A stretch of 64,000 nt of DNA from Tethya wilhelma (taxonomy: Eukaryota; Porifera; Demospongiae; Tethyida; Tethyidae). Of this stretch, positions 2,949 through 57,267 are shown in pieces; position 1 is the first letter of the stretch, and every line of letters starts with the position of its first letter. Under the pieces are notes generated by a model. It saw only the letters and a list, made by a program, of their open reading frames with translations. It did no database searches and was not told the DNA's origin. Location of the stretch: positions 3,090,223-3,154,222 of the forward strand of contig CAXIPT010000009.1 of the NCBI GenBank assembly GCA_964030475.1, in the 5' to 3' direction. The translations under genes and the position numbers were made by a program.

Positions 2949-4900
2949 CTAGTGATAAATAAAGGTCTGTATGGAGTGAGGGAGAGCTGTGACCTTGAGA
3001 GCTTGCATCTTTCCTCCATTGTCATCAAGGAGCTTGAAGGTGACAGAGTCATCTCCTCTGTTCATGACCACCACTACCACATCTTGAACAGGAGTGAGAA
3101 AGGCAACACACTCCAGAGACGACTTCACCACCAGGTTGTAGATCCTCACAGATCCACGAGGGACAAACTTACTGCATATAAGGGAAGTTAGCATTAAAGT
3201 AAATTTATAAGAGTGTTGAGTATGCATGCATGTCCACTGCCATAATATTATGTCCCAAAAACTGCACAGTCATCATAATATATCCTCGTTCTCAGGCTCT
3301 TTCCCAGTGAATAAATATTCAGGGAGAGAGCCTGGGAACGAGGCTAATTGTAACATACACAAGCTGTTATAGGCAAAAAATAGAGGTTGCATGTGGTCAT
3401 CTCATGCTGGGCAAGCACATGCCTGCGTTGCATGCATAGCATGCTTTTCATCATGCTTATGCAAACAGGATTGTTAAATCTATTTACAATGCTCAACAAT
3501 ACTAAGTCAACCTTCAGTGCATTATTGAGCCATATAGATCACAAGTCACTCACCTAATATGCCCAACATAGTAGTAGAACACTTGTGGATAGATAATCTG
3601 CTTATCTGTATCAGCAAGCATCATTCCGTCACTTCCACACTTGTCTGTTCCTTCACAGAGATCAGGACCAAGATGATTTGGTCCTCCTTGCATGTCCAGA
3701 ATGAGATTCCAATCGATAAAGCCAACTACCCAGTTGTTGATGTCGCCCATGATATCGTGAGCATAGTGCTCCCCTTTCTTCCAGACTGGGTTCGTTGGGT
3801 CTTTCTCTCGGACTTCGGTTGCTTCACTGGCTAGGATGGGGATGTGGGGAAACATGTTATGAGTTGTGTTGACGTTCTCAAACTGGTCTCCAGTGTACCA
3901 GTGAATGGCAGTGCCCCACACATACTGAGCAGCTTCAGAGTCAGAGTAGATGGTCTGTGCCCAATTGACCACATGGTCTTTGTTGTGATCGTAGATGAGG
4001 ATTTTCAAATCAGGATGGTCCTTCTTCAACCGTGGGCCGAGATGTTCTTTTATGAAATCTCTCTCAGCTGCAGCATCGTAACGCATCCCTTCATAAGTAG
4101 GGGGGCAATACTCAGGCTCATTTTGAACCGTAACCCCCCAAATGGGAATACCCTGTTCATTATAGGCTGAGATGAACTTTGAGAAGTAAAGAGCCCATGT
4201 TTCTTTATACTGGTCTTTCAATGTGCACGTACTACAATCGTGACAGTAAGGACTGTCGTTGTTCTTCATCCATTTTGGAGGACTCCACGGAGAGCTGAGA
4301 ATCTTTAAGTCATCACCTTTCCAATCACTGATAGTAGACATTGCTCGCTTGATGAACGGTATAATTCGGTCTTTGTCATGATCAATAGAAAAATTTGTGA
4401 GGTTTGCATCTCCACTGGTGCTGGCATAGTTGTAGTTCTCTAGTGAGAAATCACAAGATCCCATTGGGAGTCTTGCCATGTTGTATCGCAGTCCATCCTG
4501 GGAGAAGTACATGTTCAACACTTGAGTCTGTAGAGTGGGATTGAGCTTTGAAAAGACATACGAGGCAGCATCTGTGAATGCACCACCAAATCCAATGATA
4601 GTCTGGTAGGTTGTGGACCTATGTAAAGTGAGGGACCAATGCAAATTTATTATTAAAGATGCATAATGATGGACATAGTATCTCAAGAACTTACCTGTTA
4701 ATCTTGATATAAGTGTCTAAAGTGAAATCTTCCCCTAACTGAACATCATCTTGTTTGCTCATGCGATCTTTACTGTTTTGAGCTGTTCTGTACCATTCTA
4801 CTTGTGTACCGTTTTTCCCCACCAGTGAAACATTACTAGATCTTCCATTAGCTATGCCAATGAAGAATAGTAAAAGTAATAAAATGGATTTGCTCTCCAT
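2949..4900 (-). CDS. lysosomal-type glucosylceramidase (GH30), copy 1, three exons
   Basis: Minus-strand exons 4900-4695, 4618-3554 and 3171-2949 join in phase to give 497 residues, near the usual length of animal acid beta-glucosidases. These enzymes cleave glucose from glucosylceramide in the lysosome. The chosen start (MESKSILLLLLFFIGIANG) gives a clean signal peptide; upstream in-frame residues do not look coding. Family landmarks include GFGGAFTDAASY, MARLPMGSCDFS, the acid/base glutamate in VTVQNEP and the nucleophile glutamate in ILASEATE. The C-terminal exon carries the beta-sandwich segment (SKFVPRGSV to IQTFIYH). Several NxT/S sites fit a glycosylated lysosomal protein. A second copy lies at 15422-17204 on the other strand. 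The start is only 304 bases from the divergent Death-GPCR gene. Confidence 0.92.
3294..3343. repeat. short palindromic repeat, CCTCGTTC...GAACGAGG family, copy 1
   Basis: Inside the last intron of glucosylceramidase copy 1, a left arm reading CCTCGTTCTCAGGCTC is followed by an inverted arm, GAGCCTGGGAACGAGG. A short AT-rich centre containing AATATTC separates them. Related copies lie at 20731, 21474 and 23007, so this is a dispersed non-coding fold-back family. Confidence 0.8.
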
Positions 4901-5204
4901 CCCGTCAAATAGACGGTATAAACTGAATCGACCTTTATAGCCCTTACTGTGCTGTCGTAGTTTTGCGCATGCGTAGATCTTCCACTTCCATGTAAGGCAA
5001 CTAGATACGATGTGGTACGTATTACGTTGAAGAAGGGGTGGAACCTTGCCATTGCGGTCAAGTTCTCTGAGAAAACTGAAGACTAAAAAATTGAAGGCCA
5101 AAGCTAGAGAATTTCTACTAGACCCACCACCTTGACTAGTACGAAAGGCTGACCTCTGAGTGACCATTGAATTGTAAACTCTGCCGATAGTATCTGATCC
5201 AAAC
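4901..5204. promoter_or_regulatory. short divergent (probably bidirectional) promoter region
   Basis: Only 304 bases separate the start codons of glucosylceramidase copy 1 (minus) and the Death-domain GPCR gene (plus). Both 5' UTRs and promoters must lie here or overlap. No TATA box stands out. This rests on geometry only. Confidence 0.45.
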
Positions 5205-8200
5205 ATGGCATCTATTACTATGCCACGAAAGAAAAAACGTGTTGAAAATCTCAAAACTGAATTACTGAATAATGAGTGCGTGGCAGATAATGTTGTAGGT
5301 GTTCTGGATACTTTACCAACTCAAGCTGATTCGATAATTGCTGAAAAACCGTTTGTTACTCAAAACTATCATGTTGAACCACCGGCTTCAGAGTCAGATA
5401 CCATTGGACATGATGAATGCAGTGTGAAATCCCCTGTCAGTGATAGATATACATTTTCAGGTATGTTTATTTGTTAGATTAATTATTCGTCCACTGCTAA
5501 ACATTACCCTTAGATCATGAATAATAGTGATTCGGAAGTAGGGAGTTTATACTTAGTCTATTGAGCTACACCCATTTTTGCTCCACTATGACTGACAGGG
5601 TGAAAAATGGGTCTTGCAGAGGTCCTCTGCAACTATATCATTAAAGCTCATAATTGGCAGCAAGCCAAAACTAAGTGGGTGCTCAATGTAAACATTAATT
5701 ATACCATGTGCAGTCTCAGCAGTGGCTGTCCATAGAAGCCAGGTGCAGGTAACATCCTAGCGCATAAATTGACCGATCAGATTTTTAGTACGAGATTTTC
5801 TCTATTAATCAAAAGTAACTTCTGCTAGATAGGAGATACTTTATGACAAATTGTGCACGCTAATTATAACCTGCCTCAACCTATACAGTCGATCATGTCA
5901 ATTTGATATTAAGTGCATAAAAGAGGCCAGAATTTTATGTTTATGCATTAATGCATGCCTCCAGATATAACAATGAGTCATATTACTGTAGTGTTATTGT
6001 ATTGAATTTCACTCACGGAATTCCACTGTGACTAATGCCATGGTCATTATCCAATTGCAAATTTTGTGGTGATATTATAGTATCATAGCCATATTATACT
6101 GAGCTTATTAAAGGCGCTTTCCAGCAATGAAAATAGAAGTCAATTCAAAATCACATTATGTATATGGCAATAGGAAGCCACAAACAGATCACAAGTATGT
6201 GTGTGTACAAGTTGGCATGGACTATGGTAGTTTTGGACAAATGCCAGACAGCTTGGACTGCTCACATCAGCAGCAGATTGTAAGCGCTTCACATTCAAAG
6301 TCAGTCAGTAGTAATAGAAAAAGTTTGCATCACATAAGAAGTTTTGAGCATGAGAATGAGACTAAGATAGCACCAGCGTGCTGATAACTCCATTTGCAAG
6401 GGTCCTTAAACTCGAATACATTTTCTTCTTGAACTATCAGGCTTCTGTTTTGCCTCCCCTAGTCATGTGCCGACAATGTGGCATATAATGAGTGTATGCT
6501 AAGATAGCCAGTAGAAAGGAGGGGCTGGTATAATAGTATTAAATTTTTATAATAATTATTATTGGTTGTAAACAGATGCTGATCAAGTGTATTTGATCAA
6601 TAATTATTGTAACGTTAAGAGTTAAGACCATGTATGGCAGGTAGTTACTGTATTATACAGATCAATGTATTCACTATAGACTGCCACAGTACAACTTCCA
6701 TAATATAATATAATCAACAAAAAAATTGGTAATCATTGGTCTGCAGTTATTTCCTACAACAGATTTTAAATGTCACAGTTCATTGTCGACGTCCACGTCT
6801 CTGGTCATTGGTTTTGCAAAGCACATGATGTTATTACCATAATTATTAATTTTTTCTACATAATATTTTTATAGATCACCTCGTAATACAAAATTTGAAG
6901 GAAGTACGTAAAATTCTATTCCCTGCTCGATTGAAATGGTATGATATTGGTCTCGAGCTTAACATGGATCCAATTCTTCTAGATTCAATCAAAAGCAAAC
7001 ATTCTTCCAATGATCCTTCTGAGTTTCTAACAGAAATGCTTAAAGAGTACCTTAAAAGTTCCTATCCTAGACCGACTTGGGAATCATTGTCTTATGCCCT
7101 CCGGCAAGATACAGTCTGTCAAGGACAAATTGCAGAAGAAATAGAGAAAGTTCATCCTACACAAGGCTATCATGTGCCTGATAAGTCCATCACTCAGTTC
7201 TGGATTCCATCCACAAATGAGTCTTTCTTACACCCTTACCACACAATGAGTTCTCATTCGACTCATTCACAATCAGACTTGGATTCTAGTGGAAACTGTG
7301 CTAGTTCAAATGTACCTTCTAAAACAGATCCTCTGCACAGCAGTGAAAGTAACACCTCTGCATCGCAATTTGTGAAGCATAAAACATTCCAATGTTTATG
7401 TGGAAGGTGCAGCCTTAGCAAATACATGACATTGGGTTGTCCTGAAGAAGGAGCTGAAAGCAAGCAATATCCTTACCTTAACACGAAAGGTCTTAGCAAA
7501 CCTGCAATGGAAGATTTAGAGGCTAAACTGGATTCAGAAGTTGATAAAATGATTGAAAGTTTTGCAGATTTGTCTCACTCAATGATTGAATCATTAGAAA
7601 TGCAAGGAATAACACCAATTAAGCTAGCCAGGTGTGCTCTTAGTGTTGGAGCATATAAATCGCACAAAATTCTTAAGCCATTTTCTGAGAAAGATAGCAC
7701 TGCAATGGTCAAGGCACAGTCACTTGATGAAATATTTATTGTATTATTTCGTCACATGTCCTTCTTTAACTATGAATTGCTGCAATTTGTAATTGGAAAG
7801 TTGGGCACTGAAAGTGATCGTGACACGTTGGAGTCCTATACTACTGAATTTGAACTATTTTGCAAACGGAGTGTGTTCGAAGTGCCCCCGGACATTTACA
7901 TGAACGTTCATGGTTGTAAAATACCAGAGGATTGCAAACCATATGCTGTGAAATTAGAAGGAGACTGGAAGCTAACTGTTGGAGACGTGAAGATGGCTCA
8001 AAGAAAAATTGCTGCTCTACTTGATATTCAACCTTCCACTCTTTTACTCTGCAATGTTCATGAAGGCTGTGTGAAAATGGAGTTCTCTTTATTACAGGAA
8101 ATTTATGATGAAGTATTTCCACTTACTCCAGATCAAATTTCTGACCTCAAAGATATTGGTGTGACTGAGTGCATCACAGATTCAGAAGTGCAAATGGTGC

Positions 8201-11200
8201 GTATTTATTACTAAGCTTAGTTACAGATCATACAATACTATTTCATTGAACTATAATGATTATAATGATGCATGGATTCAGAATTGCATATTAGTATTAT
8301 CATTACATGTAGCCTATACAGAAGACACATCAGCTACCAGAATCCGATAGTGTCATTGTGGCAGATGATTCAGAAAAGTTACAATCTTCTCCAGATCAAC
8401 AATCTAACCAGTCTGAGACAGAAACATCAAGAAAAAATGGTTCAACTCGGTGGAACAAATGGGGATGCCATTACAAGGTATTATTATGTATAACTATGCG
8501 TGCATGGTTATCAACTTAATTATCATGCACGTCAATTGGGATGGTTTGCATGCATGTTGTTACAATGTACAGTAATGTTTTTCCATGCATATATCTTTCA
8601 GAAATATCACGTTATACTCACAATTATTGGCATAGTCCTTGCCTTGTTGTTGGTTTCTGTCATGGTGATTACTCTTCCACTTACTATTAGTATGATGAAT
8701 GAAGGTAATCAAAATAAATTTTAAATGTATTGTGATTATATAGACAGTAATTAAAAGTGTTGTCATTAAGTTAGTTCTGTTGCTTAAATAAAAAATTTTT
8801 GAACTGATTAAGAAGTTCACACGTCATGTGACAGAATTACAATTTGTATTGAATTTTGCTGATTTAGAGTCCAAATTCTGCCATAAAGACAATGATACTA
8901 ATGCATATGGCGAATATCTATGGAAAGAGACGGATGTACTTGGTTACTATTCTATACCATGTGAGTATGGAGGCACTGATGGGCTTGTAGATCCCAACGC
9001 AACCAGATCATGTAACAGTGAAGGAAATTGGAATGATGCAGTTTATAAAGAGTGCTTAACTCTGACAACATCTTTGTTGTGTACTCTCGCTGATTCTGAA
9101 GTATGTGTACAAATAGGATAATCATACAACATTAATATACAATGCATACAATGCATGTGTATCATTAGAACAGTGAAAATGTGCATGCATGTGTATTCAC
9201 TGTATTGTACGTATCTTAGCTATCACTAGATGAAGTATTGGAAAAACTCCTGACGGCTGTGGTACAAGCAACTGAGATTGACATGTCAGATGAAAACTTT
9301 ATGAAAATCATTTCTGTATATCAAAATTGCACAGCAAATGATGCAGTAAGGAATCATGCACTGACATGTATAGTATGCATTACTTAAGCATCACTGTATA
9401 CATAAGCAAGGATGGGCATGCATGTATGTCACATATTGTTTCTTATGCAGTGTACTCCTGGTTTTGATCAATTGTCGACACTTACTTTAGTGCTAGATTT
9501 ACTTCAAGAATGGACTGGCATTTCTCACTCAACAAGGTATAAAAGATTACAGCAGATGTGCACAATCATAATACACTATGGCAGTTTCACTCATTTATAC
9601 CAACACCTTTATGTGTACTGTCTTGTAGCATAGTGTACTATGCTGAAGAAATTCTTAGTAATTCTTTGAAAGATCTGGATATTCAGGACAATCAAGTTGT
9701 CACCTTTGTTCATGAAAATTTAATATTTACTGGACTGAAGGCAAGTCATTATGTTGAGTATATTATTTGATAAATCTCTGGACTCTTTCCTTTCACAAAC
9801 AACTGTACTGTATTCTTCATTTCTTGTTCCGTTATTCTCGACAATTCCATTCAGGCAAATTATTCTGAAACAGGTGTATCACTGATCAATCAACATGATC
9901 CACCAGGTATAAATGTCACTTGCATGCATACAATGGCCTATAATTACTGTATTATTCAGTTTGCTTGCATTTATCTTGTCACTTGGGCATATAATATTAA
10001 ATTAATAATAATATTATGTGTGTATGTATTATACTGTCTACATGAACCATGCAGATACTACAGTTGTTTTCAAAGACATCGTCGATTACCAACATCTTAC
10101 AAATACGACATTAAGAAGTTCGATAACACTAGTTCCTCAAATTTCAAATCAGTTATCAAGAAACAATATGTCCAATGATGAGCATACTATTATTCTGTTT
10201 GGAGTCTACAATTCAACTACTTTTTTCTCTCTTCGTAATGGCTCCTCACTTAACAATATGTTTACTAATGGCTTTGTTATTGAGCCTCCCCTACTCTCTG
10301 CCACCATTGCTGGCTATGATGAAGCAGTACATGGGAATGTGAATGTCACCATTCTATTCAACTTAAATGATGAGGTATTGCTAACTAAAACTTAATTGTG
10401 GTCTGTACACAGTATACATGACTTTAATACTACAATAATTATTGAATTTTAGAGTCTTGAAGAAGTTTATTGTATACTTTGGGATAGAAACACTACAGGT
10501 ATTATTCATATCTATACAAGGCATAATATTATTCAGCTTATTGAAAATTCCATGATTTTACATACTATTATTAGATGGGCAAGGAATGTGGAGCACAGCT
10601 GGTTGCATTACTACAGTTAGTCCCAATACATCCTCCCTAGTAACATGCAAGTGTAACCATTCTGGCACATTTGGGATTGCCGTTGTAAGTATTGAACCTT
10701 TTTTTAGTGTGATAAGTCCTTATTCCATATTATGTTTATAAACCTAGGGTCGAAGACTGCCTTCAGTCAATCAGTCAGTGATAAGTTCCGCAATAATAGC
10801 AGCCACATACATCTCCAGTGCAGTGTCTATTGTGGAACTTAGCTTAGCTGTAGTTACAATGATGCTTTTCAAGTAAGTATTTCATTCAGGCCTGGGGGTG
10901 CACAATCATGCATGTATTCTTATACCCTGTTCATTACATTCCTATAACTTGATTCTTGATTTTGTTCTATATGTAGAGCGAATAGACGTAAACTACCAAG
11001 CATAGTTCATGCACAACTCTTTATTGCTCTGATTGGAATGATATCGACGTTTGCTATTGGTATTGATAGAAGTGAAAATGAAATAGTCTGCACAATATTT
11101 TCTTGTCTGATTCAATACTTCACTTTGGCATCTGTTTCTTGGATGGGAGCGGAAGCCTTGCTTATGTTTAAGCTGTTTGTATTTGTAGTTGGAACGATTA

Positions 11201-11944
11201 GACGGACAACCCGTACTTTTATACTTGCAACATCATTATTTTGTTGGAGTAAGTATACATTGATTTATTTAGGATACACAGTATTAAAAAAAAATATTTT
11301 ACCATAGGTATGCCTGCAATTTTCATCACAGTTGGCCTCGTGACTCTTTCAACTGGAAATAACTATTTGATACTCATTGATACCAACTTTAAACAGTAAG
11401 TATATTAATTTTATCAGTTGATAACAGTACATTGTTAAGTGATCTTGTGATGATTCGATTTAAGAGCTCTGCTATTCTCTTTTCTGATAGATGCTTCATT
11501 GGAGATACCCGCATCCAGATAGGCTTGTTTTGGACACCAATTGCCACTATTATGATGTGCAACACAATTTGTTTTTTTATTACTTTGCGTACGCTAATAG
11601 CACATCTAAGAAAAAGACAAGAACTGAAACGAAACCACAATACCATTGCACTTGTGGTAGGAATAAAATTTACAATGGCTATACTTAGCTTGACTATTTT
11701 GTTTGGACTGTCATGGCTGTTTTTGACACTAAGTATAGACAATGGTTCTGTTATATTTCGGTGGTTCTTCATAAGTTCAAACACTCTTCAGTCTACACTA
11801 TTGTTCATATTGTTTTGTGCCAGTGGTGATAATCGCCAGCGATGGAAGAACTTGCTCAAACTAAAAAAGGACAATAGTTTATCAGCTGCCGCAACTAAAG
11901 TTTCAAGACTTAGCTATGAAAAGCACCAAGCCAACTCAGTTTGA
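5205..11944 (+). CDS. Death-domain/adhesion-GPCR fusion protein, 16 exons
   Basis: Exons: 5205-5460, 6875-8196, 8322-8477, 8602-8704, 8868-9100, 9220-9345, 9451-9536, 9629-9740, 9855-9906, 10055-10374, 10453-10498, 10575-10684, 10748-10872, 10977-11248, 11308-11395 and 11491-11944. They total 3861 bases and stay open in one phase (1286 residues). There is no signal peptide. Order: basic N-terminus; Death domain near residues 86-185 (LKWYDIGLELNMD, PRPTWESLSYAL); Ser-rich linker; a helical region (SFFNYELLQFVIGKLG, CKRSVFEVPP) of a kind I associate with sponge Death proteins; and an added membrane span (VILTIIGIVLALLLVSVMV). Then a hormone-receptor-like cysteine module (YYSIPCEYGG, SEGNWND), a GAIN-like region, a GPS motif (CILWDRNTT to CKCNH) and seven spans with the family motif SWMGAEALLMF. 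The added span would place Death in the cytosol and GAIN outside. One intron (9741-9854) appears to be GC-AG. Two adjacent genes remain possible, but phase agreement across every junction argues for one. Confidence 0.75.
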
Positions 11945-12465: not shown

Positions 12466-14277
12466 TTACTCTATAGAGCATTTGGTGACTCGAAACTTTA
12501 GGCGATTATTTCTTGTAAAACTTTCGCCAGGTTTGTTCCAAACCATTTCATTACTGATGTGGTTTGAGTACCAGGTTGTGTTAAATAGAGGACTCTTCCT
12601 TTCTAGATGGTTAGCTCCAACTTGATTTATAAGTGTGACAACTATCTCGCCTTTTTGAATACCCTTAAGTATGCATGTGAATTCACCTCTTGCTAAGAAT
12701 GCTTGTACTGAAATACTTAGTGGTTGAATGCTTACTGATAGGTATACCTTGTAACCGTGTAAGTGACTGTAAAATGGTGTAGAATACCATTTGTTATTAG
12801 CTTGTCCAGTACGTTCTACATACTTGTCAACTGTAAACTCAAAATATTTTAGCGGTTCCATTCCAATGTATGGTAAAATGCTCTTTTGTTTCACTCCCAT
12901 CTCTTTCACTTCTCTCTCCATATTGTGTTTGAGGGTTTCCCTTTCCCTAGATAGTTTAGCTTCAGCAGCTTTTATCTCCTCCTGCAGTTTCTCTTTTTCA
13001 TCTTTCACCAACTTCTCTAGTCTTTGCTTTAACTCATTGATCTCTCGATTTAGCGATTCTGACGTATCTTTGAGTGACTTGCTAAGCTTCTCGTCCAAAG
13101 CTCTCAAATCAGCTTTAACACCATTTGTGGCAGTTATACGATCTCTTTCAAGCTTTGTTCTTGCATCTGTTGTTTCTTTTCGAAGTGTCTTTACAGATTC
13201 CTTAAGTTCTTCTTTCATTTTTTCATCCCCAGTAGTCATATCTTTCTTGAGTGTCTTATGAGCGGTTTCAACTTCGCTTCTTAGTTTCACTTCCATTGCT
13301 TTGAGATCTACTTGTAACTTTTCACTTATAGTTTTAATTTCTTTTGTTAGCCTGTCATCTACTTGTTCAAGATCTGTTTTGGATTTATTTGAAGCAGTTT
13401 CATGCTCTTTTCTCAACTTTGCTTCAGTTGTTTTCAGGCTCTGCTCAAGTGCTGTAAGGCGTTGTTTTAAATCCTTATTCTCTCGCTTGAGATCTTTGAA
13501 CTGCTGTTCATTATTTATTTCAGCCTTTTTTTGTTTGGAAGCTATCATTTGCAAATGGGAAACAAGCTCTTTCGTTAAATGCCCGGGAACATCTTTGCGC
13601 GGTTTTGAAACTTGACAGCCAGCATAATGAAAGTCACATTTTATGACTGTTAAAGGACACTCATCCTTCACATGAGCATCGACATTTTGACGTTGTGGTT
13701 TTTTGCCACAATTTTTAGGACAATCAACAGGTTTGAATGCACAGACGGCCCAATGCTTGTTGACTATGTCGTGATAAGTTGTTTTGTGATGGATACAGAA
13801 TTCACAGCTAAATGGTCGTTGTTGACATTCCTCTACTTGATGCTTACGTATGTCATTGCGTTTAAATTGGACGTTACAGTAAACACAGCTTACTTCAGTG
13901 AAACCACAGCCATTCAGCTGTTGGTCTTGAGTAGGATTCTCGTTGAGATGCTTAGGATAATCGCCAAGTGAGCCTTTCCATGCGCATCCACTCTTTATGT
14001 GAAAGCATTGTACAGATAGACCGTTCAAAGCACGTTGCATTCCTTTGTTATGAAAGACAGTAAAGTTTTGTTCATTACAGGTTGAACAAGGTTTCTTTTC
14101 ATTGAGGACCCTATTGATGCACCTTTTGCAATAGTTGTATCCACAACAAGATGTTTGGTGCGGCTCTCGTAGTATATTCAAACAAATGGGACAGTTGGGT
14201 TGGAACTCTTTCTGAGGAAGCTCAACGAATTCACAATCATATCCATCAACTCTTTCTTTATCTTGCGACCTACTCAT
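12466..14277 (-). CDS. RING / TRAF zinc-finger / coiled-coil / MATH-like protein, intronless
   Basis: One uninterrupted 603-residue frame starts at the ATG at 14277-14275. Residues about 29-67 form a C3HC4 RING (CPICLNIL, CCGYNYCKRCI, KPCSTC), usually an E3 ubiquitin ligase module. About 90-220 hold TRAF-type zinc fingers (HIKSGCAWKG, CVYCNVQFKR, CPKNCGKK, CDFHYAGCQ). About 230-470 are a long, highly charged coiled coil with repeated A/L-D-E-K-L type heptads. The C-terminal ~130 residues (IGMEPLKYFEFTV to FRVTKCSIE) sit where TRAFs carry a MATH domain and have a beta-rich look, including WYSTPFYSHLHGYKVY. The order matches TRAF adaptors, which link receptors to NF-kB and JNK signalling, but the coiled coil is longer than in classical TRAFs. 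Lack of introns suggests an old retrocopy or lineage-specific intron loss. Confidence 0.85.
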   Translation of the reverse strand: MSRSQDKERVDGYDCEFVELPQKEFQPNCPICLNILREPHQTSCCGYNYCKRCINRVLNEKKPCSTCNEQNFTVFHNKGMQRALNGLSVQCFHIKSGCAWKGSLGDYPKHLNENPTQDQQLNGCGFTEVSCVYCNVQFKRNDIRKHQVEECQQRPFSCEFCIHHKTTYHDIVNKHWAVCAFKPVDCPKNCGKKPQRQNVDAHVKDECPLTVIKCDFHYAGCQVSKPRKDVPGHLTKELVSHLQMIASKQKKAEINNEQQFKDLKRENKDLKQRLTALEQSLKTTEAKLRKEHETASNKSKTDLEQVDDRLTKEIKTISEKLQVDLKAMEVKLRSEVETAHKTLKKDMTTGDEKMKEELKESVKTLRKETTDARTKLERDRITATNGVKADLRALDEKLSKSLKDTSESLNREINELKQRLEKLVKDEKEKLQEEIKAAEAKLSRERETLKHNMEREVKEMGVKQKSILPYIGMEPLKYFEFTVDKYVERTGQANNKWYSTPFYSHLHGYKVYLSVSIQPLSISVQAFLARGEFTCILKGIQKGEIVVTLINQVGANHLERKSPLFNTTWYSNHISNEMVWNKPGESFTRNNRLKFRVTKCSIE

Positions 14278-15421
14278 GATCTTCTCTCTTGTTTAACTCT
14301 CGATAACGATTTTCGCTGGTATAGCTGACAACAGACCCGAGCACTTTAATTTTATAGAGAGCTGCAGGGTGGAATCGGAATTGAACAGCTAGATGGACCG
14401 TGCACCCGTGTAACGCCACACCCACTAGGCTGTCCATCTATGGATAGAATCTTGAAATCCGGGCCATTCGATATGCCATCATCAAGTTCGAGTCTGGCAA
14501 ATTGAGTTGATCTTGGCAATTTCATTCCAATAATCCAGTCCCCCAGCCCGGCAGGGGATTTTACCAGGGAGAACACCAGGGGAAAAACTGCTAGGTCTGC
14601 AGCCAGTGTGGTGGAATGATCTGATTGGACGCAGAGAATTACATACTTTATGGACATAAGCAGCAGCAAGGGAATATAGCTATATATTTCACTATAATTA
14701 GATATATGTGTATAATACTTAGACTTAAGGTCTGAGTATTAATGCTTGTACTAACGCTATAATAGAATCTAGATGCCGATCACATTCTCGTGACGTCAAA
14801 CGTCACGCAAGCTATATAGCTAGCGCTATCAGTAGCGCTAAAGCTAGATGTACAACTGTACGCATGCGCAATTACCTTATGGCCATATTAGCGCGAATAA
14901 GAATAATTAATATCCTCTGCCACCTAGGTGAGCTCAAAGTGAGTCTGTACAGGAAAAATTGAATTTGACAGGGCTGTATAAAGTCCATTTTTCTTCCCTG
15001 GTGGAGAGGAGAGAGAGGCAGTGAGGTATGTGAGCTTGTAGGGTGTTTGTGTGTCTTGAATATCATGTTTAGTTTTTGACTGGGTGGGACTCAGTTTTCC
15101 TGTTTACCTGTTATGCATTTTGTGAGAGAATGTGGTTGTGAAAAGTGTATACATAGTATAAAAAGCCTTCTACAGACTTGATGAGCAGTTTTTTGCTTTT
15201 TCTCAACATACATTTTTTCGTTCATCTGTTGTCTTTCAAGCCGCCTGGTTGTTGTTCCCTGTGAGTGAGTGGCAATGGCAGAAAAATCCATTTTAGAGAG
15301 CTACTAAATTTGACCTTTGACCCTTTTGAGCAATAATCAGCCATTTTGAGACCAAATCCTCTCGGCTTTGAGATAGTATCATGAGTTTCTATGAGCCTAT
15401 GAATATCATTACTGTTTTAGT
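14278..15421. other. divergent intergenic region; no first exon found for glucosylceramidase copy 2
   Basis: Between the RING/TRAF-like gene and glucosylceramidase copy 2 I find no counterpart of the signal-peptide exon that copy 1 carries at 4900-4695. A short imperfect palindrome around GCTAGCGCTATCAGTAGCGC lies near 14819-14840. Both promoters presumably lie here. Confidence 0.5.
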
Positions 15422-17204
15422 GTGATCCCCGCCCACTCAAAAACCTCTAACCTTAATGAGGAAATTTTTGTTATTGTTCACAGGTCCACAACCTACCAGA
15501 CTATTATTGGATTTGGTGGTGCATTCACAGATGCTGCATCGTATGTCTTTTCAAAGCTCAATCCCACTCTACAGACTCAAGTGTTGAATATGTACTTCTC
15601 CCAGGACGGACTGCGATACAACATGGCCAGACTCCCAATGGGATCTTGTGACTTCTCAGAAAAGAACTACAACTATGCCAACACAAGCGGAGATACAAAC
15701 CTCACAAAATTTTCTATCGATCACGATAAAGACCGTATCATACCGTTCATCAAGCGATCAATTGCTACGATCAACGATTCAAAAGGTGACGATTTGTGGA
15801 TTATCAGCTCTCCATGGAGTCCTCCAAAATGGATAAAAAATAACGACAGTCCTTATTGTCCTTTTGGTTGTCTTGGTTGCACCGTGAAGGAGAAGTATAA
15901 AGAAACATGGGCTCTTTACTTCTCCAAGTTTGTTTCAGCCTATAACGAACAGGGTATCCCCATTTGGGGGGTTACAGTTCAGAATGAACCAGGGGCTTGT
16001 CCGTTAGATTATGAAGGTCTTCATTTTACGCCAAAAACTGAAAGGGATTTCATAAAAGAACATCTCGGTCCACGGTTGAAGAAGGACCATCCTGATTTGA
16101 AGATCCTCATCTACGATCACAACAAAGACCACGTGGTGAAATGGGCACAGACCATCTACTCTGACTCTGAAGCTGCTCAGTACGTGTGGGGCACTGCCAT
16201 TCACTGGTACACTGGAGACCAGTTTGAGAACGTAAACACAACCCATAACATGTTTCCCCACATCCCCATCCTAGCCACTGAAGCAACCGAAGTCCGAGAG
16301 AAGGACCCAACGAACCCAGTCTGGGAGAAAGGGGAGCACTATGCTCACGATATCATGGGTGACATCAACAACTGGGTAGTCGGCTTTATCGACTGGAATC
16401 TCATTCTGGACATGCTGGGTGGACCTGACCATGCTGGGCCTAGTGAATGCGAAGGAATTATCAAGTGTGGTAGCGATGGAATGATACTTGCTGATGCTGA
16501 CAAACAGATAATCTACCCACAAGTGTTTTATTACTATGTTGGTCACATCAGGTGAGCAGTGCTATAGCTGTGCATGCTGACTGTGGTTTCATTCATGTGG
16601 TAGACCAGTCTTTGTTCTTATGAAATTAAATCTTTACCATGTAACTTCATGCATGCACACTGGTGACCTGTCTATAGCTATAAATCAGACTACCATATAG
16701 TGGGAATGTTTTGCCGGGTTTAACTTTCACGTTTTTTGTGGATCACGATCCATCTGTGAAAATTTTTATCTGCAAAATTTTTCATTATGTATCATAATAT
16801 TATTATACATAATATGGGCTCGCACAGCTCATTCACAAAAGTTAAACTGCAAAAATGTTCTACTGGAAACATCCGTGAAAGTTTGACACCGCAAAGCTTT
16901 CCCACTATACAGTATGTTTTTTCATGTTTAGATATTTTTGTTTTCCTAGTTTCTATGATTAATTACTAATTATTATTGCAGTAAGTTTGTCCCTCGTGGA
17001 TCTGTGAGGATCTCCAACCTGGTGGTGAAGTCGTCCCTGGAGTGTGTTGCCTTTCTCACTCCTCTTCAAGATGTGGTAGTGGTGGTCATGAACAGAGGAG
17101 ATGACTCTGTCACCTTCAAGCTCCTTGATGACAATGGAGGCAAGATGCAAGCTCTCAAGGTCACAGCCCTCCCTCACTCCATACAGACTTTTATTTATAA
17201 GTAA
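15422..17204 (+). CDS. glucosylceramidase (GH30), copy 2, signal-peptide exon missing
   Basis: Exons 15484-16551 and 16982-17204 correspond to exons 2 and 3 of copy 1 and share its splice positions. No equivalent of exon 1 is visible upstream. The frame can be extended through the acceptor to an ATG at 15422 (MIPAHSKTSNLNEEIF), giving 450 residues without a signal peptide. Catalytic glutamates are kept in VTVQNEP and ILATEATE. The last exon is almost identical to copy 1, while stretches around the cysteine-rich loop (YCPFGCLGC versus YCHDCSTC) and after NEP differ much more. It could be a cytosolic or mis-sorted isoform, a gene using an undetected distant exon, or a young pseudogene; the intact frame favours function or very recent origin. 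It points away from copy 1. Confidence 0.8.
16695..16909. mobile_element. MITE-like element with TATAGTGGGAA termini in glucosylceramidase copy 2 intron
   Basis: The left end reads TATAGTGGGAATGTTTTGC and the right end gives TATAGTGGGAAAGCTTTGC when reverse-complemented. The interior is AT-rich with paired short repeats around AAAATTT. It has no coding capacity. Copy 1 of the enzyme lacks it in this intron, so it arrived after duplication or was lost there. Confidence 0.7.
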
Positions 17205-43305: not shown

Positions 43306-45398
43306 CTTGAATTTGAGCATGGTACACTTGTAACTGATCCATGTGTGTGGGAAGGTCCTTACGTAATGACTATAATATGGATGTGTGTGTATATATAAAA
43401 TGAGACTTGAATTCCTCATTGCATGAGCTATGAATATAGTCATACTTACATGTAACTATTATAATATGAAGCTATAAAGAATAAATTATAAGTAGAAATT
43501 TGAATCATAAAGCTAACTTGAAGAGTTTTACTCTACAGTATACCCATAGAGTGTACGTCTAGTGTGTACATGCATGACACCATAAGAAGTATCTCAAAAC
43601 CAAACAAAATGAAACCAAAACAACAATTAAAGCAAAATATACAGCTCCTAATGATAGGAATAATATGCATGTATAGATGCTATACTTACCACAAAAGAAC
43701 ATCCATAATTGGAGTATGGACAAGGCACTTCAGTCAATGGACAGTCACCTCCATCAACAGCAAGATGATTTTGAAGCTGGATTGTGTTTAAAGTAACTGT
43801 GTGTAATTACAGTTGACATGCAACCATATGCCCGTATAGATACTATTAAATGAGTAATAACAAATGCATGCAGAATATACATATATAATGCAAAGAAACG
43901 ATGTTCCCAAATGTGGGGCCAAAGAATGAACACAAAAAGGCTGTTTACTGCCAAAATTCACATGCAAAATGTACGTACCTCTGAGAGTTTAAACTCCTTC
44001 TTGGAATCACATTCTTTGGGGCACTTCCGCAATACATCTGGGCATTCTTTTTTCATGTGATCCTACAAACATGTTATTTTGTCCAATTTTTGTGAATGAT
44101 AATAATAATATGATTATTATTAATACACACACATGCATGCACACACATAGTTGGGTGATGCTCTCACTCTCAGATACATTAATTAAGAAAATTAATGCGT
44201 TAGCGTGCATTGCACTAAATAAGCTAGGAATGAATATGCAAATTTTAAATTTACGTGGCCATCATGTGCACCATGCAGTTATACACTGTACTATGCCCAC
44301 TAATAAACGCTAGATGTCAGCAAAAAAAAAAAAAACTACTAAGAGGCAGTAGGGAAAAGTACTTGTCAAGGCTTAGTACTATAATATTATTATGCTAGTT
44401 GAATTCCATTGAGTATAAAGAGCTACCAAACTTATATTCATGATGCATAGATCAACCCATGCATATAGGCTCTTGTGTACGGTAAATTTTATACTATAAA
44501 CTTATAGGTTGCTATAGGCATCAGCAAACAAACACACACACAAAAAATATTTTGGGACATAATTATATAGTATTACATACCAACATCAGCTGAGAAGGCA
44601 CTTCTTGATGACAGTAAGCACATTCTGTTGGTCTCATTGGGCACTCCACCTCTTGGTGGGCCTTGAATACGCTAGCTTGGATGGACTGGCCGCACTGTTT
44701 GCATTGAACCTCTCGATGTCCACACGACTTAATGTGAGCCTAGTATAATTATCCAAAATAGTGATGTTGAGCACTATTATAATATAGCTAAACATCATAA
44801 TAACAACTAATATACCGTATAGCCGGAAATATTGACGGGGATTTTACTTTGACGTTTTTTACGGTCAAAGTCCAAATCGTCAAATTTAAATCCGCCAATA
44901 TTTTGGGCGCCATATATGAATGTATTATGCGCACTCGCAAATCGTCAAATTTAAATTCGTCATTTTTATTTTACGTTCTGCGGAGCAAACCGTCAAATAC
45001 CGTATATATAATTTTATTAATTTTATTATGATACACATGTTTTACATTTACTTGTCAAAGAGATTCAAATTCATGATTAAATTACTTTCTCAAAGTGAAC
45101 TTACTTCTAGTTCATTCAAATACCCCACCCACTGACATCCTCCTGCAACATAATTGCAATACACCTCCAATCTTGATATGTCTCTAGCGACAGCACGGTC
45201 TGGAAATGTTTGGGTAATTTCTTCATTGTCTTCAGGACAGACTAGTCTTTGACTAGTACTCTGGAAATGAGGTACACATTCCTTGCAAAAACGATGGCCA
45301 CAATCTGCTTGGACTGGATTTCTTGCGGCACAGCGGCATATGGTACATTTATATAATTCTTGAAGAGGACGAACAAATTTGGCTTCATACCCAGGCAT
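43306..45398 (-). CDS. TRAF-like protein: RING and TRAF zinc fingers, C-terminus not found
   Basis: Minus-strand exons 45398-45105, 44739-44581, 44062-43979, 43776-43690 and 43369-43306 join in phase. The start at MPGYEAKFV follows an acceptor (TTTAATGTAG), implying a 5' UTR exon upstream. The RING reads YKCTICRCAARNPVQADCGH then RFCKECV, as in TRAF1/2-type adaptors. TRAF-type fingers follow (CNYVAGGCQWVGYLNELE, CGHREVQCKQCG, CAYCHQEVP, CPKECDSKKEF, CPYSNYGCSF), with exon ends at finger boundaries. The last visible exon (DLPTHMDQLQVYHAQIQ) looks like the start of the coiled coil and ends in phase 1. No MATH domain is visible downstream before the SWIM remnant. The gene is either truncated by that insertion or uses distant exons. 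Confidence 0.7.
44816..45004. mobile_element. AT-rich MITE-like element (TACCGTATA ends) in a TRAF-like intron
   Basis: The element runs from TACCGTATAGCCGGAAATA to CGTCAAATACCGTATATA and has internal repeats of CGTCAAATTTAAAT. Inverted TACCGTATA-type ends and no coding capacity fit a MITE. Confidence 0.6.
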
Positions 45399-45548
45399 TT
45401 CTACATTAAAGATAGAGTCTGATAAAACTATATATGAATCTGTCAAGTCAACATGAGTCTCTTTTGTACTTATCATTACGTAAAAATGAATAATAAGTTG
45501 TTCAATTTTCATCAAGTTATTAATAATAGCTCTCATGAACGACCCCAC

Positions 45549-45595
45549 CTCGTACCAAGGCCCCTCCCATCAAAAAGGAGAGGGCCTGGTAAACA
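45549..45595. repeat. short palindrome (CTCGTACCAAGGCCC...GGGCCTGGTA)
   Basis: ACCAAGGCCCCTCCC is mirrored by GAGAGGGCCTGGT with a short loop. It resembles the CCTCGTTC palindrome family in plan but not in sequence. Confidence 0.5.
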
Positions 45596-48888: not shown

Positions 48889-51800
48889 CTATTTTAGACT
48901 ATTGTTCTCCTCATTTGCCAGGAGTGATTCCTGTAGCTGTACAGAACTGTGTGTTATCCCACTCTCAGTGTTGTTCTTAAGCATAAAATTATAATGGTAC
49001 ATGAAAGAAACAGGTGATACTTTGCCTCTGAACTTTTCTTTGAGTTTTGCGGCAATCTTTTTCTTCATTTCCTCTCCTTTTCTAGTCCTCACAACTCTTT
49101 CGAACACATGATATATCACTATGGCAACAAAGGATAGAATTGCCATACCAACCATACTGTTGGTCACTTTGGCTTGATTTGCTGATGAGTTTAATTCGTA
49201 AAATGTAGCTGAAGTCAAACAGGCAAGATTCATTAGGAAAAAGATTTCGATAAAGTTAGGCAATTTTGACTCGTACACCCATCCAAAAAAAGACAAATAT
49301 GAAAACAGTCCAATCACTACGATGTTAATTGCTAGCAAATTAATGAAAGGGTCATTTGAAGTGTTTAATGAGAAAATAACAAACAGAATTCCACGAATTA
49401 GCAAGAGTAGTCCTGTCCAGTAGCGATGTTGCTCTTTATAGGGACCTGTGTAGGCATCAAAGAGTGGCTTTAGTTTGTGCACCCAAAAGATGATACGGTT
49501 CGTTCTGTTAATTTTTTGTAGCCACTGGGCAACCAGTAACACTACTGTGTATGGAAGAGAGAGGAAGATTAGGACTAGTAGACCCATGATGAACAGAGGG
49601 ATGTGTTTTCCAGTGAGGTAGTCAATGTTTCCATCATACAACCACACTCTCTTACTAGAGTTGTCAGAGTAGGTGAGTGTGCCCGATTGAAATATTGTGA
49701 TTATGTTTCTAAGTAGTTTTGCATACGATAGTAAAAATAAAGTTGCTAAGACTTGCACTGTGTTAGTTCCACACAGCTTTGCAATGGTGAAATAGCGCCG
49801 ACTCAGCAGAATGAGAGTGAGAACTATGAACCAAATGTAGAGAGGAAAGAGAAACTGTAGCCAAACTTTAACATAGCCATCAAGATCATTGTAAAAACAT
49901 ACTTCAGTACCCAAGTCTAGATTAAGCCAGGCTATGAACCAGCTTAGGAAAGAGTTGTGGATTTCTGGGGGAAAGAAAATGGCCTGGTTAGCTCGGACAA
50001 TGTTAGCATAAAAGATTAGGCCATTTATTGTTCCTGTGGAGACTGTGAGATCTAGCAATGTAAGACCTATAATGAGTGCCACCCCTGCTATTATGAATAC
50101 TGGAACAATTAGAATTACCCATTTATTCGAACAGTTTTGAGTACATGAGGAAGACCCTAATAATTGGCTGTAATTAGTGAGGCATTGACCACAGAGAATG
50201 CCTGAGTGGTTTAAGGCACATTGTTTGTCAGGATGGTACAAGTCTAACAGTGGCACTCTTACACTGTTATAGCAATAGTTGAATGGACAATATTTTGATA
50301 CAATGATTCTAGGGTCGTCTTGAGTTGCATAGATCCACATATTTCCAGATCGTTTGATTTGAAATGTTGTCATGTTGCACTCAATGTTGTGTTTTTTAAG
50401 AAGACTGGGGTGACACACACATGTCCCACTTGATGCTTGGAATGAAAATCCGAGTGGACAGTAGCTTTTTATGGTGATTGAGATTGTAAATGACTTGATG
50501 TAAACATTTTGTTGTTTTGGGTTTGAAGGTTTGTAGTTCTCAACATTCAGACTTAAGTGTAAACTTGTGTTCAATTGAAATGAATAAATTGTATAGGTTA
50601 ATGTCGTACAGTGCTTATTGACAGTTTGTACATTTTGGGAAAGGCCTATTCTTGCTATATTATGTGTAGTCTTCAATAGTTCTGCATACACAACTGCTGG
50701 TACGATGCCATATGCTTGTCCCACAGCAATAGCTTGGAACTGAAATGTTTGTCCAGGAAACAGTTCAATTGTGTGTGAAAACTTTTTACAATCTGGGGTT
50801 GAATTGTTACAAATACACACTTGAAAAGGATTTGAAGATAAAATGGAATTGTTAAAGTTTCTGATTTTAGTTGCAAAAAAGGTAAGATTTTGACAATAAT
50901 TTCCAAAGTTAAGATATCCACCATAGAGCATGTCTCCAGCAACTGATGCAGTATTGTTTAAAAAAGTCAGTTTTGGACAACTAGAACCCATTGAGTCACT
51001 ATAGTCTCTGTGATACTCCAAGAATGGCTTAGTAATGAATCGATATACTTTCAGAGAACGGGTATAACTTGGATCATCAATGTATACAGCCCCTCCTTTT
51101 CGTGAGGCGTGATTTTTGAAAAATTCTATTGAGTTACTAGAACTCAATATTAACAATTGAGAGTCAGAATGAAGGCATAATGCACCACCATTTATGCCAT
51201 TATTCCTTACAAACTCAACAGTAGCATTGGGTCCTTTTATCTCAAATTTGGTAGCAATTGCAGTGATAGCCCCACCATAGGGTGAATTGGAAGTGTTGTT
51301 TTCAAATAGAACGTAAGCATTTTTCAAGATATGAACACTTGCTTGTACTGCAGCTAAAGTAGAATATCTAGCAATAAGTACTTTATTTTTCTTAACAATG
51401 TTGTTGATAAAATAAGTCTCACTTCCTTCTTCAAAGATGAGACTTGATCTCCATAGTACCAATCCTGAATTACTGTGAAGAGTGTTCTTTCCATGAAGAA
51501 ATATAGAAGAGGGATTCAATGTATAGATTGATGTATACTCTGTAACAATTTCCTCAAAGTATGTTTTAGTTGTGCCTAAAATTAAGAAACAATTTATTAA
51601 TTCTGTGTTTCTTAGAAGTGTTTCAGAACCATTTACACTTGAAATATATATCTTTCGGACTCTGTGATTTGATGGTGTCTCATCAATCAAACTGTTTGAG
51701 ATTGTCAGCTTAGTAGCATCAGAATTTGAATAAAATACAATGGAATGTCCTTTGGACCCTTTATGTCCACGGGACACAAGTTGATCTATTGCAATATTAT

Positions 51801-52737
51801 GTGAATTGTTATTGTGATTTGCTGTAACAAGATTAATTAAATTCTTATAAAACTGAACGTCTCTCATTGTGATGTTTAGCATTGGGTTGCGATTACCTAT
51901 GAATGTCATTATGTTCAATCCACTGGCTGCTTTATTTGGATAACCATGTACATGTATTTTTGGAACCAACAATCTTGTCACAGAGTAAGGTTCAAGTCCA
52001 TGATTAAAACTACACATTGTGATATTAATGTTTGTTGTTTTAGGGAGGCCCCTCCTAATTATACTGGTTCCATTGAAAAGTATAAAGCAGTTAATGTGAT
52101 TATGGTGAAAGATTGATTGAGACAACAGAAGCTCTCTCCCCACGTTTCTAACTAGCAATCCAATTCCTTTTGTGCCACTAAATGTAACATTGACAATTCT
52201 TACAAACATTGAGTCTGTGACAAAAACTGCGATTTTAGTATTTCTATCAAATGGTGTAGGACACGTACAATTCTTTAAGGATATGTTTGCAATTGTGAAA
52301 TTTGTAACATTGCTAAAGAACAAACCAGAACGACTCACACACTTAATTGAAGTGTACATGAGGTTAAGTGAATCATTTTCATACTCAAAACGGGATATCT
52401 CAAAGCTCGAGATTGTTTCAACAAAAATCTTTGTGTCACTTACAATCACACTTTCATCTCCAATGATATGTATACCTGGTGATAGAGCTACTGATATAGA
52501 GGCAGTGGAACTATTGAGGCTCTGGATGACTCTGCCTTTGACCAACTCACTGAGAGTGTAGCAGTGGCCATCCAAAGCTGTAGGACAAAGTGAAGCTGTC
52601 TTTTGTTCATTTGTGATTACATAGATCGTAGCGTTGCTGCTATCAGCAAGAGATCCAGTATCTCCCAACAGAAGTATTATCACAGCACAAACTATCACAG
52701 CAATTGTAGACATGACTTTCAATTTTAGGCATGCCAT
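48889..52737 (-). CDS. beta-helix (Pom-type repeat) receptor-like protein with ~8-9 membrane spans, intact copy
   Basis: This is one long uninterrupted frame. I start it at MACLKLKVMSTIAV (52737) because it gives a signal peptide matching the paralogue at 61371; upstream Mets up to 52878 are possible. That yields about 1282 residues. The first ~650 are a predicted right-handed beta-helix with many N-glycosylation sites and repeats of FxxN and GGA type (SPYGGAITA, NGGALCL, RKGGAVYIDD), as in polymorphic outer-membrane-protein repeats. A Cys-rich segment follows (CPLGFSF, CVCHPSLL, CALNHSGILCGQC). Then come about eight to nine hydrophobic spans (VILIVPVFIIAGVALIIGL; PLFIMGLLVLIFLSLPYTVV; IEIFFLMNLACLTSA) and a basic tail. 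The layout suggests a cell-surface receptor or scaffold; no known G-protein-receptor motif is seen. It is intronless and has a truncated and a broken copy nearby. Confidence 0.8.
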   Translation of the reverse strand: MACLKLKVMSTIAVIVCAVIILLLGDTGSLADSSNATIYVITNEQKTASLCPTALDGHCYTLSELVKGRVIQSLNSSTASISVALSPGIHIIGDESVIVSDTKIFVETISSFEISRFEYENDSLNLMYTSIKCVSRSGLFFSNVTNFTIANISLKNCTCPTPFDRNTKIAVFVTDSMFVRIVNVTFSGTKGIGLLVRNVGRELLLSQSIFHHNHINCFILFNGTSIIRRGLPKTTNINITMCSFNHGLEPYSVTRLLVPKIHVHGYPNKAASGLNIMTFIGNRNPMLNITMRDVQFYKNLINLVTANHNNNSHNIAIDQLVSRGHKGSKGHSIVFYSNSDATKLTISNSLIDETPSNHRVRKIYISSVNGSETLLRNTELINCFLILGTTKTYFEEIVTEYTSIYTLNPSSIFLHGKNTLHSNSGLVLWRSSLIFEEGSETYFINNIVKKNKVLIARYSTLAAVQASVHILKNAYVLFENNTSNSPYGGAITAIATKFEIKGPNATVEFVRNNGINGGALCLHSDSQLLILSSSNSIEFFKNHASRKGGAVYIDDPSYTRSLKVYRFITKPFLEYHRDYSDSMGSSCPKLTFLNNTASVAGDMLYGGYLNFGNYCQNLTFFATKIRNFNNSILSSNPFQVCICNNSTPDCKKFSHTIELFPGQTFQFQAIAVGQAYGIVPAVVYAELLKTTHNIARIGLSQNVQTVNKHCTTLTYTIYSFQLNTSLHLSLNVENYKPSNPKQQNVYIKSFTISITIKSYCPLGFSFQASSGTCVCHPSLLKKHNIECNMTTFQIKRSGNMWIYATQDDPRIIVSKYCPFNYCYNSVRVPLLDLYHPDKQCALNHSGILCGQCLTNYSQLLGSSSCTQNCSNKWVILIVPVFIIAGVALIIGLTLLDLTVSTGTINGLIFYANIVRANQAIFFPPEIHNSFLSWFIAWLNLDLGTEVCFYNDLDGYVKVWLQFLFPLYIWFIVLTLILLSRRYFTIAKLCGTNTVQVLATLFLLSYAKLLRNIITIFQSGTLTYSDNSSKRVWLYDGNIDYLTGKHIPLFIMGLLVLIFLSLPYTVVLLVAQWLQKINRTNRIIFWVHKLKPLFDAYTGPYKEQHRYWTGLLLLIRGILFVIFSLNTSNDPFINLLAINIVVIGLFSYLSFFGWVYESKLPNFIEIFFLMNLACLTSATFYELNSSANQAKVTNSMVGMAILSFVAIVIYHVFERVVRTRKGEEMKKKIAAKLKEKFRGKVSPVSFMYHYNFMLKNNTESGITHSSVQLQESLLANEENNSLK

Positions 52738-53024
52738 AATCAGGATTTTTCTTTTATCTTGAGATAACATCAAATGCATACTTTGGATCATTCTGAAATT
52801 CATGCAGCTGCACATTCCTTGAGAGTTTATAATGACAATTTTGAATATCCAAATATTAATCATTTTGATAACAAGCAATAAATATTCACACAGAAACTAT
52901 AGACACATTACTCCCAAAAGGTACTGTTTTTGCAATCGTTATACAATGTCATACAATGTACAAATTTAAATTTTCAAAACACAACATAACTTAACAATTT
53001 CAATCTGCAATGTAATAATAGGCT

Positions 53025-57166: not shown

Positions 57167-57267
57167 ATTAACAGGAAGTACTCTAAGAGAGAAGGTAAAC
57201 ATCAATACAATTAAAATATTACTAAAGAGTTCTAAAGAGTTACTAAAGAGTTCAAAGGATTATCACA
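57167..57267 (-). repeat. LTR fragment, first 101 bp, truncated at assembly gap
   Basis: Its reverse complement starts TGTGATAATCCTTTGAACTC and is identical over 101 bases to the LTR at 35838. It is joined directly to coding sequence ending AACAT and stops at the n at 57166. It is therefore the 5' LTR of the retroelement whose 3' end is at 35087-36201. Confidence 0.9.

Follow-up and report, generated by a model that had tools for sequence, protein, structure and literature searches.

The locus described here lies in a 64,000-nt stretch of the Tethya wilhelma genome (the window; contig CAXIPT010000009.1, G000:C9:3090223-3154222 in the 124.6 Mb searched) and holds a plus-strand gene model predicted to encode an adhesion G-protein-coupled receptor (GPCR) with a Death domain near its N terminus. 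The rebuilt model comprises 16 exons between 5205 and 11944, amounting to 3861 nt and 1286 aa plus the stop codon, without an internal stop, and it reproduces exactly the single open phase reported in the first-pass annotation, including the junctions 8196/8322, 8477/8602 and 8704/8868. The introns are GT-AG in 14 of 15 cases and GC-AG in one (donor after exon 8, at 9740). The observation of that annotation is confirmed and its interpretation, a Death domain joined to an adhesion-type receptor through an extra membrane span, is supported. The features are as follows.

5205..5460, plus strand: exon 1, aa 1-85; charged start, N terminus not hydrophobic
6875..8196, plus strand: exon 2, aa 86-526; Death domain, Cys-rich CxCGxC stretch, helical region, RRM/ferredoxin-like domain
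about 6880-7161, plus strand: Death domain in exon 2, aa ~88-181
about 7933-8172, plus strand: RRM/ferredoxin-like domain in exon 2, aa ~439-518
8322..8477, plus strand: exon 3, 156 nt, phase 0/0; linker with basic end
8602..8704, plus strand: exon 4, extra membrane span (aa 583-603, 8614-8676); exits in phase 1
8868..9100, plus strand: exon 5, 233 nt; HRM-like Cys module, under the Pfam cut-off
9220..9345, plus strand: exon 6, start of the presumed GAIN region, named from its position ahead of the GPS
9451..9536, plus strand: exon 7, presumed GAIN region
9629..9740, plus strand: exon 8, presumed GAIN region; GC-AG donor
9855..9906, plus strand: exon 9, presumed GAIN region
10055..10374, plus strand: exon 10, presumed GAIN region; many N-glycosylation sequons
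10453..10498, plus strand: exon 11, first part of the GPS (aa 928-972)
10575..10684, plus strand: exon 12, remainder of the GPS, CKCNHSGTFGIAV; usual cleavage position without Thr/Ser
10748..10872, plus strand: exon 13, span 1 of the seven-transmembrane (7TM) bundle
10977..11248, plus strand: exon 14, 7TM bundle
11308..11395, plus strand: exon 15, 7TM bundle
11491..11944, plus strand: exon 16, final 7TM spans, short tail, stop

A Pfam scan of the spliced protein placed 7tm_2 at aa 993-1236 (E = 3.1e-23, 82.7 bits against a cut-off of 20.6) and GPS at aa 928-972 (E = 3e-9, 37.7 bits against 22.5), so that the adhesion-type seven-span bundle and its GPS stand as first proposed; these were the only matches at E<=1, with none to Death, HRM or GAIN. 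The GAIN half of the proposed GAIN/GPS region is accordingly a label of position before the GPS, and the HRM-like Cys module finds a weak match as an isolated exon piece (E = 0.0099, 16.7 bits) but lies below the cut-off of 26.2. The added hydrophobic span is the strongest of nine candidate spans in the protein, with a mean Kyte-Doolittle hydropathy of 3.16 over aa 583-601. No family was found in NCBIfam for any of four proteins, and a protein search with aa 86-1286, in which 7993 candidates were scored, had a whale adhesion GPCR as its sole match. Its bundle and GPS make the protein an adhesion GPCR, yet a non-standard one, lacking both a signal peptide (the first hydrophobic span lies at aa 583, by hydropathy only) and the usual cleavage residue.

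The Death domain proposed for residues 86-185 is carried by fold and relatives and not by Pfam, where even the isolated piece stays under the cut-off (E = 0.0064, 17.0 bits against 22.6). Two observations support it: (i) the predicted structure forms the helical bundle of a Death fold, with ten-residue mean predicted local distance difference test (pLDDT) values of 75-92 over model residues 1-90; and (ii) used as a genome query, the region finds four places at E values of 9e-20 to 2e-17 that overlap Pfam-passing Death places. In alignment A1, four of 10 members match Pfam Death at E<=0.1, the best at 7.7e-7. The region is 60-73% identical to the four other cassettes having one, a cassette being the unit of Death domain, RRM-like domain and membrane span. 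A sequence search of the PDB with the Death piece returned one chance match (E = 0.97). The idea that the Death label is an over-reading was rejected; Pfam alone is too weak, yet fold and intermediates carry the label. It is possible, if unlikely, that the cassette is now only a membrane anchor or trafficking signal whose Death domain no longer signals, as the sub-threshold Pfam score and the abundance of Death relatives in this genome (150 scored places each by Pfam Death and by the window Death query) would allow; the well-predicted helices and the identity shared with the other cassettes argue against such decay. The second domain of the cassette has the beta-alpha-beta-beta-alpha-beta order of an RRM-like fold and is perhaps TRADD-N-like. 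PF13820 (TRADD-N) had no match genome-wide, nor any in the control genomes, and TRADD-N was absent among the best 50 matches for this domain in each of two comparisons.

The same domain order was found at a second locus of this genome, C2, where 7tm_2 (1.4e-28) and GPS (3e-11) both exceed the Pfam cut-off. All 14 shared introns are equal in phase between the two loci, an agreement that is not fully independent, because the C2 exons were selected manually on the pattern of the window gene. Two exons match in length, exon 3 (156 nt, phase 0/0) and the HRM-position exon (233 nt), and in C2 the span exon is longer and is followed by three extra exons. Between the span and the HRM-position exon of C2 (L040, about 3690-4714) lie an Ig-like piece (Ig_3, 0.0014, under the cut-off) and, by eye, a SEA-like stretch.

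With respect to topology, the window protein has a net charge of +4 in the 25 residues preceding the extra span and -3 following it, and glycosylation sequons number 4 in aa 1-582 versus 13 in aa 602-990 (4 versus 16 across the corresponding sides in C2). Judged from sequence, the Death end would be cytosolic and the HRM-GAIN region extracellular, with eight spans in all, so that the cytosolic placement stays a prediction, as in the first-pass annotation, supported by both asymmetries. The usual consensus for GPS cleavage is HL|T/S. In the window the motif reads CKCNHSGTF, with Gly at the Thr/Ser cut site, and the receptor, lacking the cleavage nucleophile, should remain uncleaved, while C2 has CDHLTNF (HLT) and should be cleaved. 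Since 12 sponge adhesion GPCRs without GPS are described in the available text of PMC4302439, a missing cleavage residue alone does not expel the window protein from the adhesion GPCRs.

The cassette belongs to a large family. An own-genome search with aa 1-613, in which 72 of 391 candidates were scored, gave at least 72 matches, at least 69 of them outside the window gene, and among the 70 places given only the window and C2 have 7tm_2 on the same strand within 12 kb. A span exon follows the nearest cassettes in C6 and in two of three on C5, and no GPCR-part match was found at E<=1 in the 6.5-7.9 kb downstream of them. The C2 cassette is 73% identical to that of C6 versus 55% to that of the window, and the C2 7TM region is 84% identical to that of C28 versus 41% to that of the window. 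Holding window and C2 together was rejected for the cassette (p-AU, approximately unbiased test, 8.65e-40; 12-row tree) and for the 7TM region (p-AU 4.0e-4; 13-row tree), and the first 7TM tree gave the same split. Each part of C2 thus groups apart from its counterpart in the window, which calls for two or more joins, or for a single join and recurrent swapping. Phase-1 introns are the common class for extracellular exon shuffling. The Death-span cassette, with a phase-1 intron after its span, is likely to be a shuffled unit joined to adhesion GPCRs at least twice, for which the evidence of separate joins is moderate. We consider it improbable that fusion instead happened once, long ago, and that sister loci then lost or exchanged either the cassette or the GPCR part: the join does lie at the same place in window and C2 (the phase-1 intron preceding the HRM-position exon), but both C2 parts have nearer relatives where the other part was not found (C6 on a 7.9-kb flank, C28 among 72 of 391 candidates), and the trees reject window and C2 together for both parts, a result with which gene conversion or repeated swapping is still compatible.

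Some of these relatives have features of their own. At C28, an SRCR match (2.7e-10) lies upstream of a related HRM-like exon, whose module scores 13.9 bits, below the HRM cut-off; the region G000:C28:244711-250981 carries these exons upstream of a same-strand series that comprises two GPS matches and one listed 7tm_2 bundle, either a tandem GAIN or a decayed neighbor. Because the second GPS stands between the HRM-like exon and the 7TM region, the SRCR/HRM exons and the C28 7TM region are not claimed as one gene. Downstream of the C6 and C5 cassettes, Ig/FN3-like frames are visible by eye, of which Pfam recognized an FN3 piece in C6 only (1.6e-4, under the cut-off) and nothing in the C6 Ig-like frame or the C5 frames tested. 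L044 with L049, L041 with L050, and L042 hold sister Death cassettes and a span exon, with Ig/FN3-like frames beyond by eye, and in C6 and C5_545 further frames with a span and a Tyr-rich tail follow, which may also represent two-ended receptors. Three relatives of the Death/RRM-like unit (P0002, P0003 and P0005) have in common a C-terminal domain, SEFIR/TIR-like by eye, with a sequence of the kind ...IGVFYDSKQKQKA...; precomputed Pfam assignments give Death only for P0002 and nothing for P0003 or P0005.

There is good evidence that the receptor locus of the window is one gene, from which a single transcript would be expected. The open frame of the HRM exon (8792-9121) has no Met ahead of it, so that translation of a second gene would have to start within intron 3. 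Where exon 2 ends, in phase 0, the window has GTGCGT and all five paralogs (C2, C6 and the three from C5) show GTAAGT at the corresponding position, and P0001, a relative of exon 2 in another genome (74% over 80% of the query), continues there as Val-Ser, as GTNAGN would encode. The span exon has no upstream in-frame Met in the four paralogs having one (C2, C6, C5_545 and C5_516), with a stop codon abutting it in C2; in the fifth, C5_473, the span exon was looked for and not found. Exon 3 is flanked by an acceptor of 6.7 bits and a donor of 7.0, both good scores (top 2-3% of window AG/GT) on a scoring matrix built from the two modelled genes themselves. In the genome that holds P0001, P0011, a relative of exon 16 (65% over 69%), is likewise on two contigs, the longest of which is again 636,290 bases; the shared figure suggests linked ends and says nothing on distance or strand. 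Nearness is not part of this argument. From about 210 Death places, 52 GPS places to about 90 adhesion GPCR loci (the latter a guess from 134 exon-wise 7tm_2 matches) and 124.6 Mb, we estimate that 0.4-0.8 same-strand Death/adhesion GPCR pairs within 10 kb in one order would arise by chance, and adjacency alone therefore proves nothing; chance adjacency as a full account was nonetheless rejected, the case resting on exon conservation. Elsewhere in the genome, at C1:16524470 (L048, G000:C1:16520500-16530400, reverse strand 5089-7165), there is one such pair that is unfused: a frame encoding a Death domain and, by eye, ankyrin-like repeats runs into a stop codon shortly ahead of the GPS exon and 7tm_2 pieces of an adhesion GPCR.

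Taken together, we think it somewhat more probable than its negation that one gene encodes an adhesion GPCR with a cytosolic N-terminal cassette (Death, RRM-like domain and own membrane span), an HRM-like/GAIN/GPS region outside and seven spans after it. In such a receptor, the span of the cassette would set the HRM-like/GAIN/GPS region outside the cell, in front of the seven spans and with a membrane anchor on either side; a ligand or mechanical load on this ectodomain could cluster the receptor; the clustered Death domains might then nucleate an assembly of the caspase or NF-kB type; and, in parallel, the GAIN stalk under tension may engage the 7TM bundle. In C2, the cleaved N-terminal fragment would be held by its own span rather than shed. 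Several points weigh against this proposal: (i) the Death-signalling step is suggested by analogy only, and in Foldseek no match to Death reached E<=0.001, the domain being argued from probability, Z and intermediates; (ii) similarity of the RRM-like domain extends to folds of membrane-proximal ectodomains (SorCS2, IA-2, phogrin and the ACE2 neck), which would fit a location outside the cell; (iii) the exon-2 donor (ATG|GTGCGT; 3.3 bits, top 13%) is the weakest among the 31 GT donors in the two gene models, and translation could begin at an in-frame ATG in the intron before exon 4, giving a shorter receptor that lacks the cassette; (iv) an unfused Death gene beside a 7tm_2 gene exists in one case, so adjacency by itself is not rare; (v) the window 7TM region sits on a long branch (1.2-1.3); and (vi) besides the hand-picking of its exons, C2 has near-equal charge around its span (+2 before, +1 after), no Pfam family at E<=1 in its HRM-position module, and a Death domain lost at an assembly N beside a CA repeat near C2:20055947, with only its final residues GHGQIAEQIE left, so that C2 is evidence for the order starting at the Death end and not for an entire Death domain.

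The weak donor and the intronic ATG bear on two further explanations. Retention of intron 2 (window 8197-8214) would yield a soluble Death/RRM-like protein of 531 aa (...QMVRIYY). The locus could produce such a protein along with the full fusion, and perhaps also, by starting internally, a GPCR without the cassette; this we regard as doubtful, for although the weak donor at 8197, the in-frame ATG in intron 3 and the fact that skipping of exon 3 (156 nt) preserves the frame are all compatible with it, paralogs do not conserve the tail that intron retention would add. Two neighboring genes, one for a cytosolic Death/RRM-like protein that ends in intron 2 (TAA at 8212-8214) and one for a standard adhesion GPCR with a signal peptide running from the in-frame ATG of intron 3 (MLLQCTVMFFHAYIFQ, frame open from 8494) into exon 4, are highly improbable, since the weak exon-2 donor, that ATG and the unfused pair elsewhere in the genome are countered by the frame without Met, the donor position and Met-less span exon conserved in the paralogs, the well-scoring exon 3 with its equal in C2, the C2 order, the P0001/P0011 pair, and the mere 67 nt that separate the C2 HRM-position exon from the previous exon, scant room for a promoter.

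In the death receptors TNFR1 and Fas, the Death domain is one span away from the ectodomain. The window protein shares this spacing and differs from them in its N-terminal Death domain, type II-like span and ectodomain of adhesion GPCR type. With adhesion GPCRs (class B2), and the HRM-bearing sponge members in particular, it shares GPS, 7tm_2 and an HRM-like module ahead of the GPS region, an arrangement found in at least eight Amphimedon receptors according to the available text of PMC4302439; whereas adhesion GPCRs have a signal peptide and a free extracellular N terminus, the window protein has a cytosolic Death cassette by prediction, an eighth span and a GPS without cleavage residue. The large Death plus RRM-like family of this genome resembles the expansion of Death plus TRADD-N proteins printed for Amphimedon (357 proteins; PMC8195603), in which an N-terminal Death-like and RRM-like pair likewise precedes a variable C terminus. 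The C-terminal partners printed in the available part of that paper (ankyrin, SH3-LRR, kinase, MATH, SH2, PDZ, caspase, PNPase and HD) include no 7TM or GPCR, in contrast to the adhesion GPCR of the window, whose RRM-like domain is only putatively TRADD-N. A Death-domain receptor also works with an adhesion GPCR where UNC5 netrin receptors form a complex with latrophilin and FLRT (PMC4838878, in its available text), but there the Death domain lies inside, after the span, and the GPCR is a separate chain, while the window protein combines both in one chain in another order. GPCRs joined to cytosolic signaling domains are known from early-branching lineages as GPCR-kinase (GPCR-TKL/K and GPCR-TK) and GPCR-PIPK fusions in choanoflagellates and sponges; in the available text of PMC12716839, the kinase is described C-terminal to the 7TM region, whereas the Death domain of the window is N-terminal.

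The word "death" does not occur in the available text of this choanoflagellate GPCR survey or of the Amphimedon GPCR paper (PMC4302439), and neither "GPCR" nor "7TM" occurs in the main text of PMC8195603. The order Death-span-adhesion GPCR was not found in the literature searched (also PMC6208332, PMC12909245 and PMC9897584, as far as their available text goes), supplements and closed papers lying outside its scope, and no literature match was found for 7tm_2 with PF00531 or for adhesion GPCR with TRADD-N. As far as this literature extends, the window protein would represent a new architecture among adhesion GPCRs, with a signaling role that is predicted.

Other genes of the window were noted by eye. 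A RING/TRAF-like frame on the minus strand (12466-14292) is convergent with the receptor gene and lies about 0.5 kb from its 3' end, which may be coincidence, and a second lies at 45090-45569 (minus). Two closely similar glucosylceramidase-like frames (3550-4716, minus, and 15395-16555, plus) flank the receptor and TRAF-like genes, and two long related frames (48889-52896 and 57252-60494, both minus) have a large ectodomain-like part and several hydrophobic stretches.

To conclude, we see evenly balanced prospects for the broader proposal that sponges possess a mobile cassette of Death domain, RRM-like domain and span, repeatedly spliced before receptor ectodomains, which on adhesion GPCRs, at least twice, would give a two-ended receptor, its ectodomain anchored on both sides, in which one stimulus leads to both G-protein signaling and Death assembly, and in which GPS cleavage would be unable to release the N-terminal fragment. 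If this is correct, machinery for adhesion or mechanosensing and for cell death or inflammation would be united in one chain in an early-branching animal, while one vertebrate link between Death domains and adhesion GPCRs, UNC5-FLRT-latrophilin, is a complex of separate chains (PMC4838878, in its available text). The N-terminal fragment of the C2 receptor would be unable to leave the cell, and the ectodomain of the window receptor would be uncleaved and loop-like, predictions that both bear directly on shedding and tethered-agonist models. The two loci would also suggest that exon shuffling linked Death signaling to GPCRs on more than one occasion.
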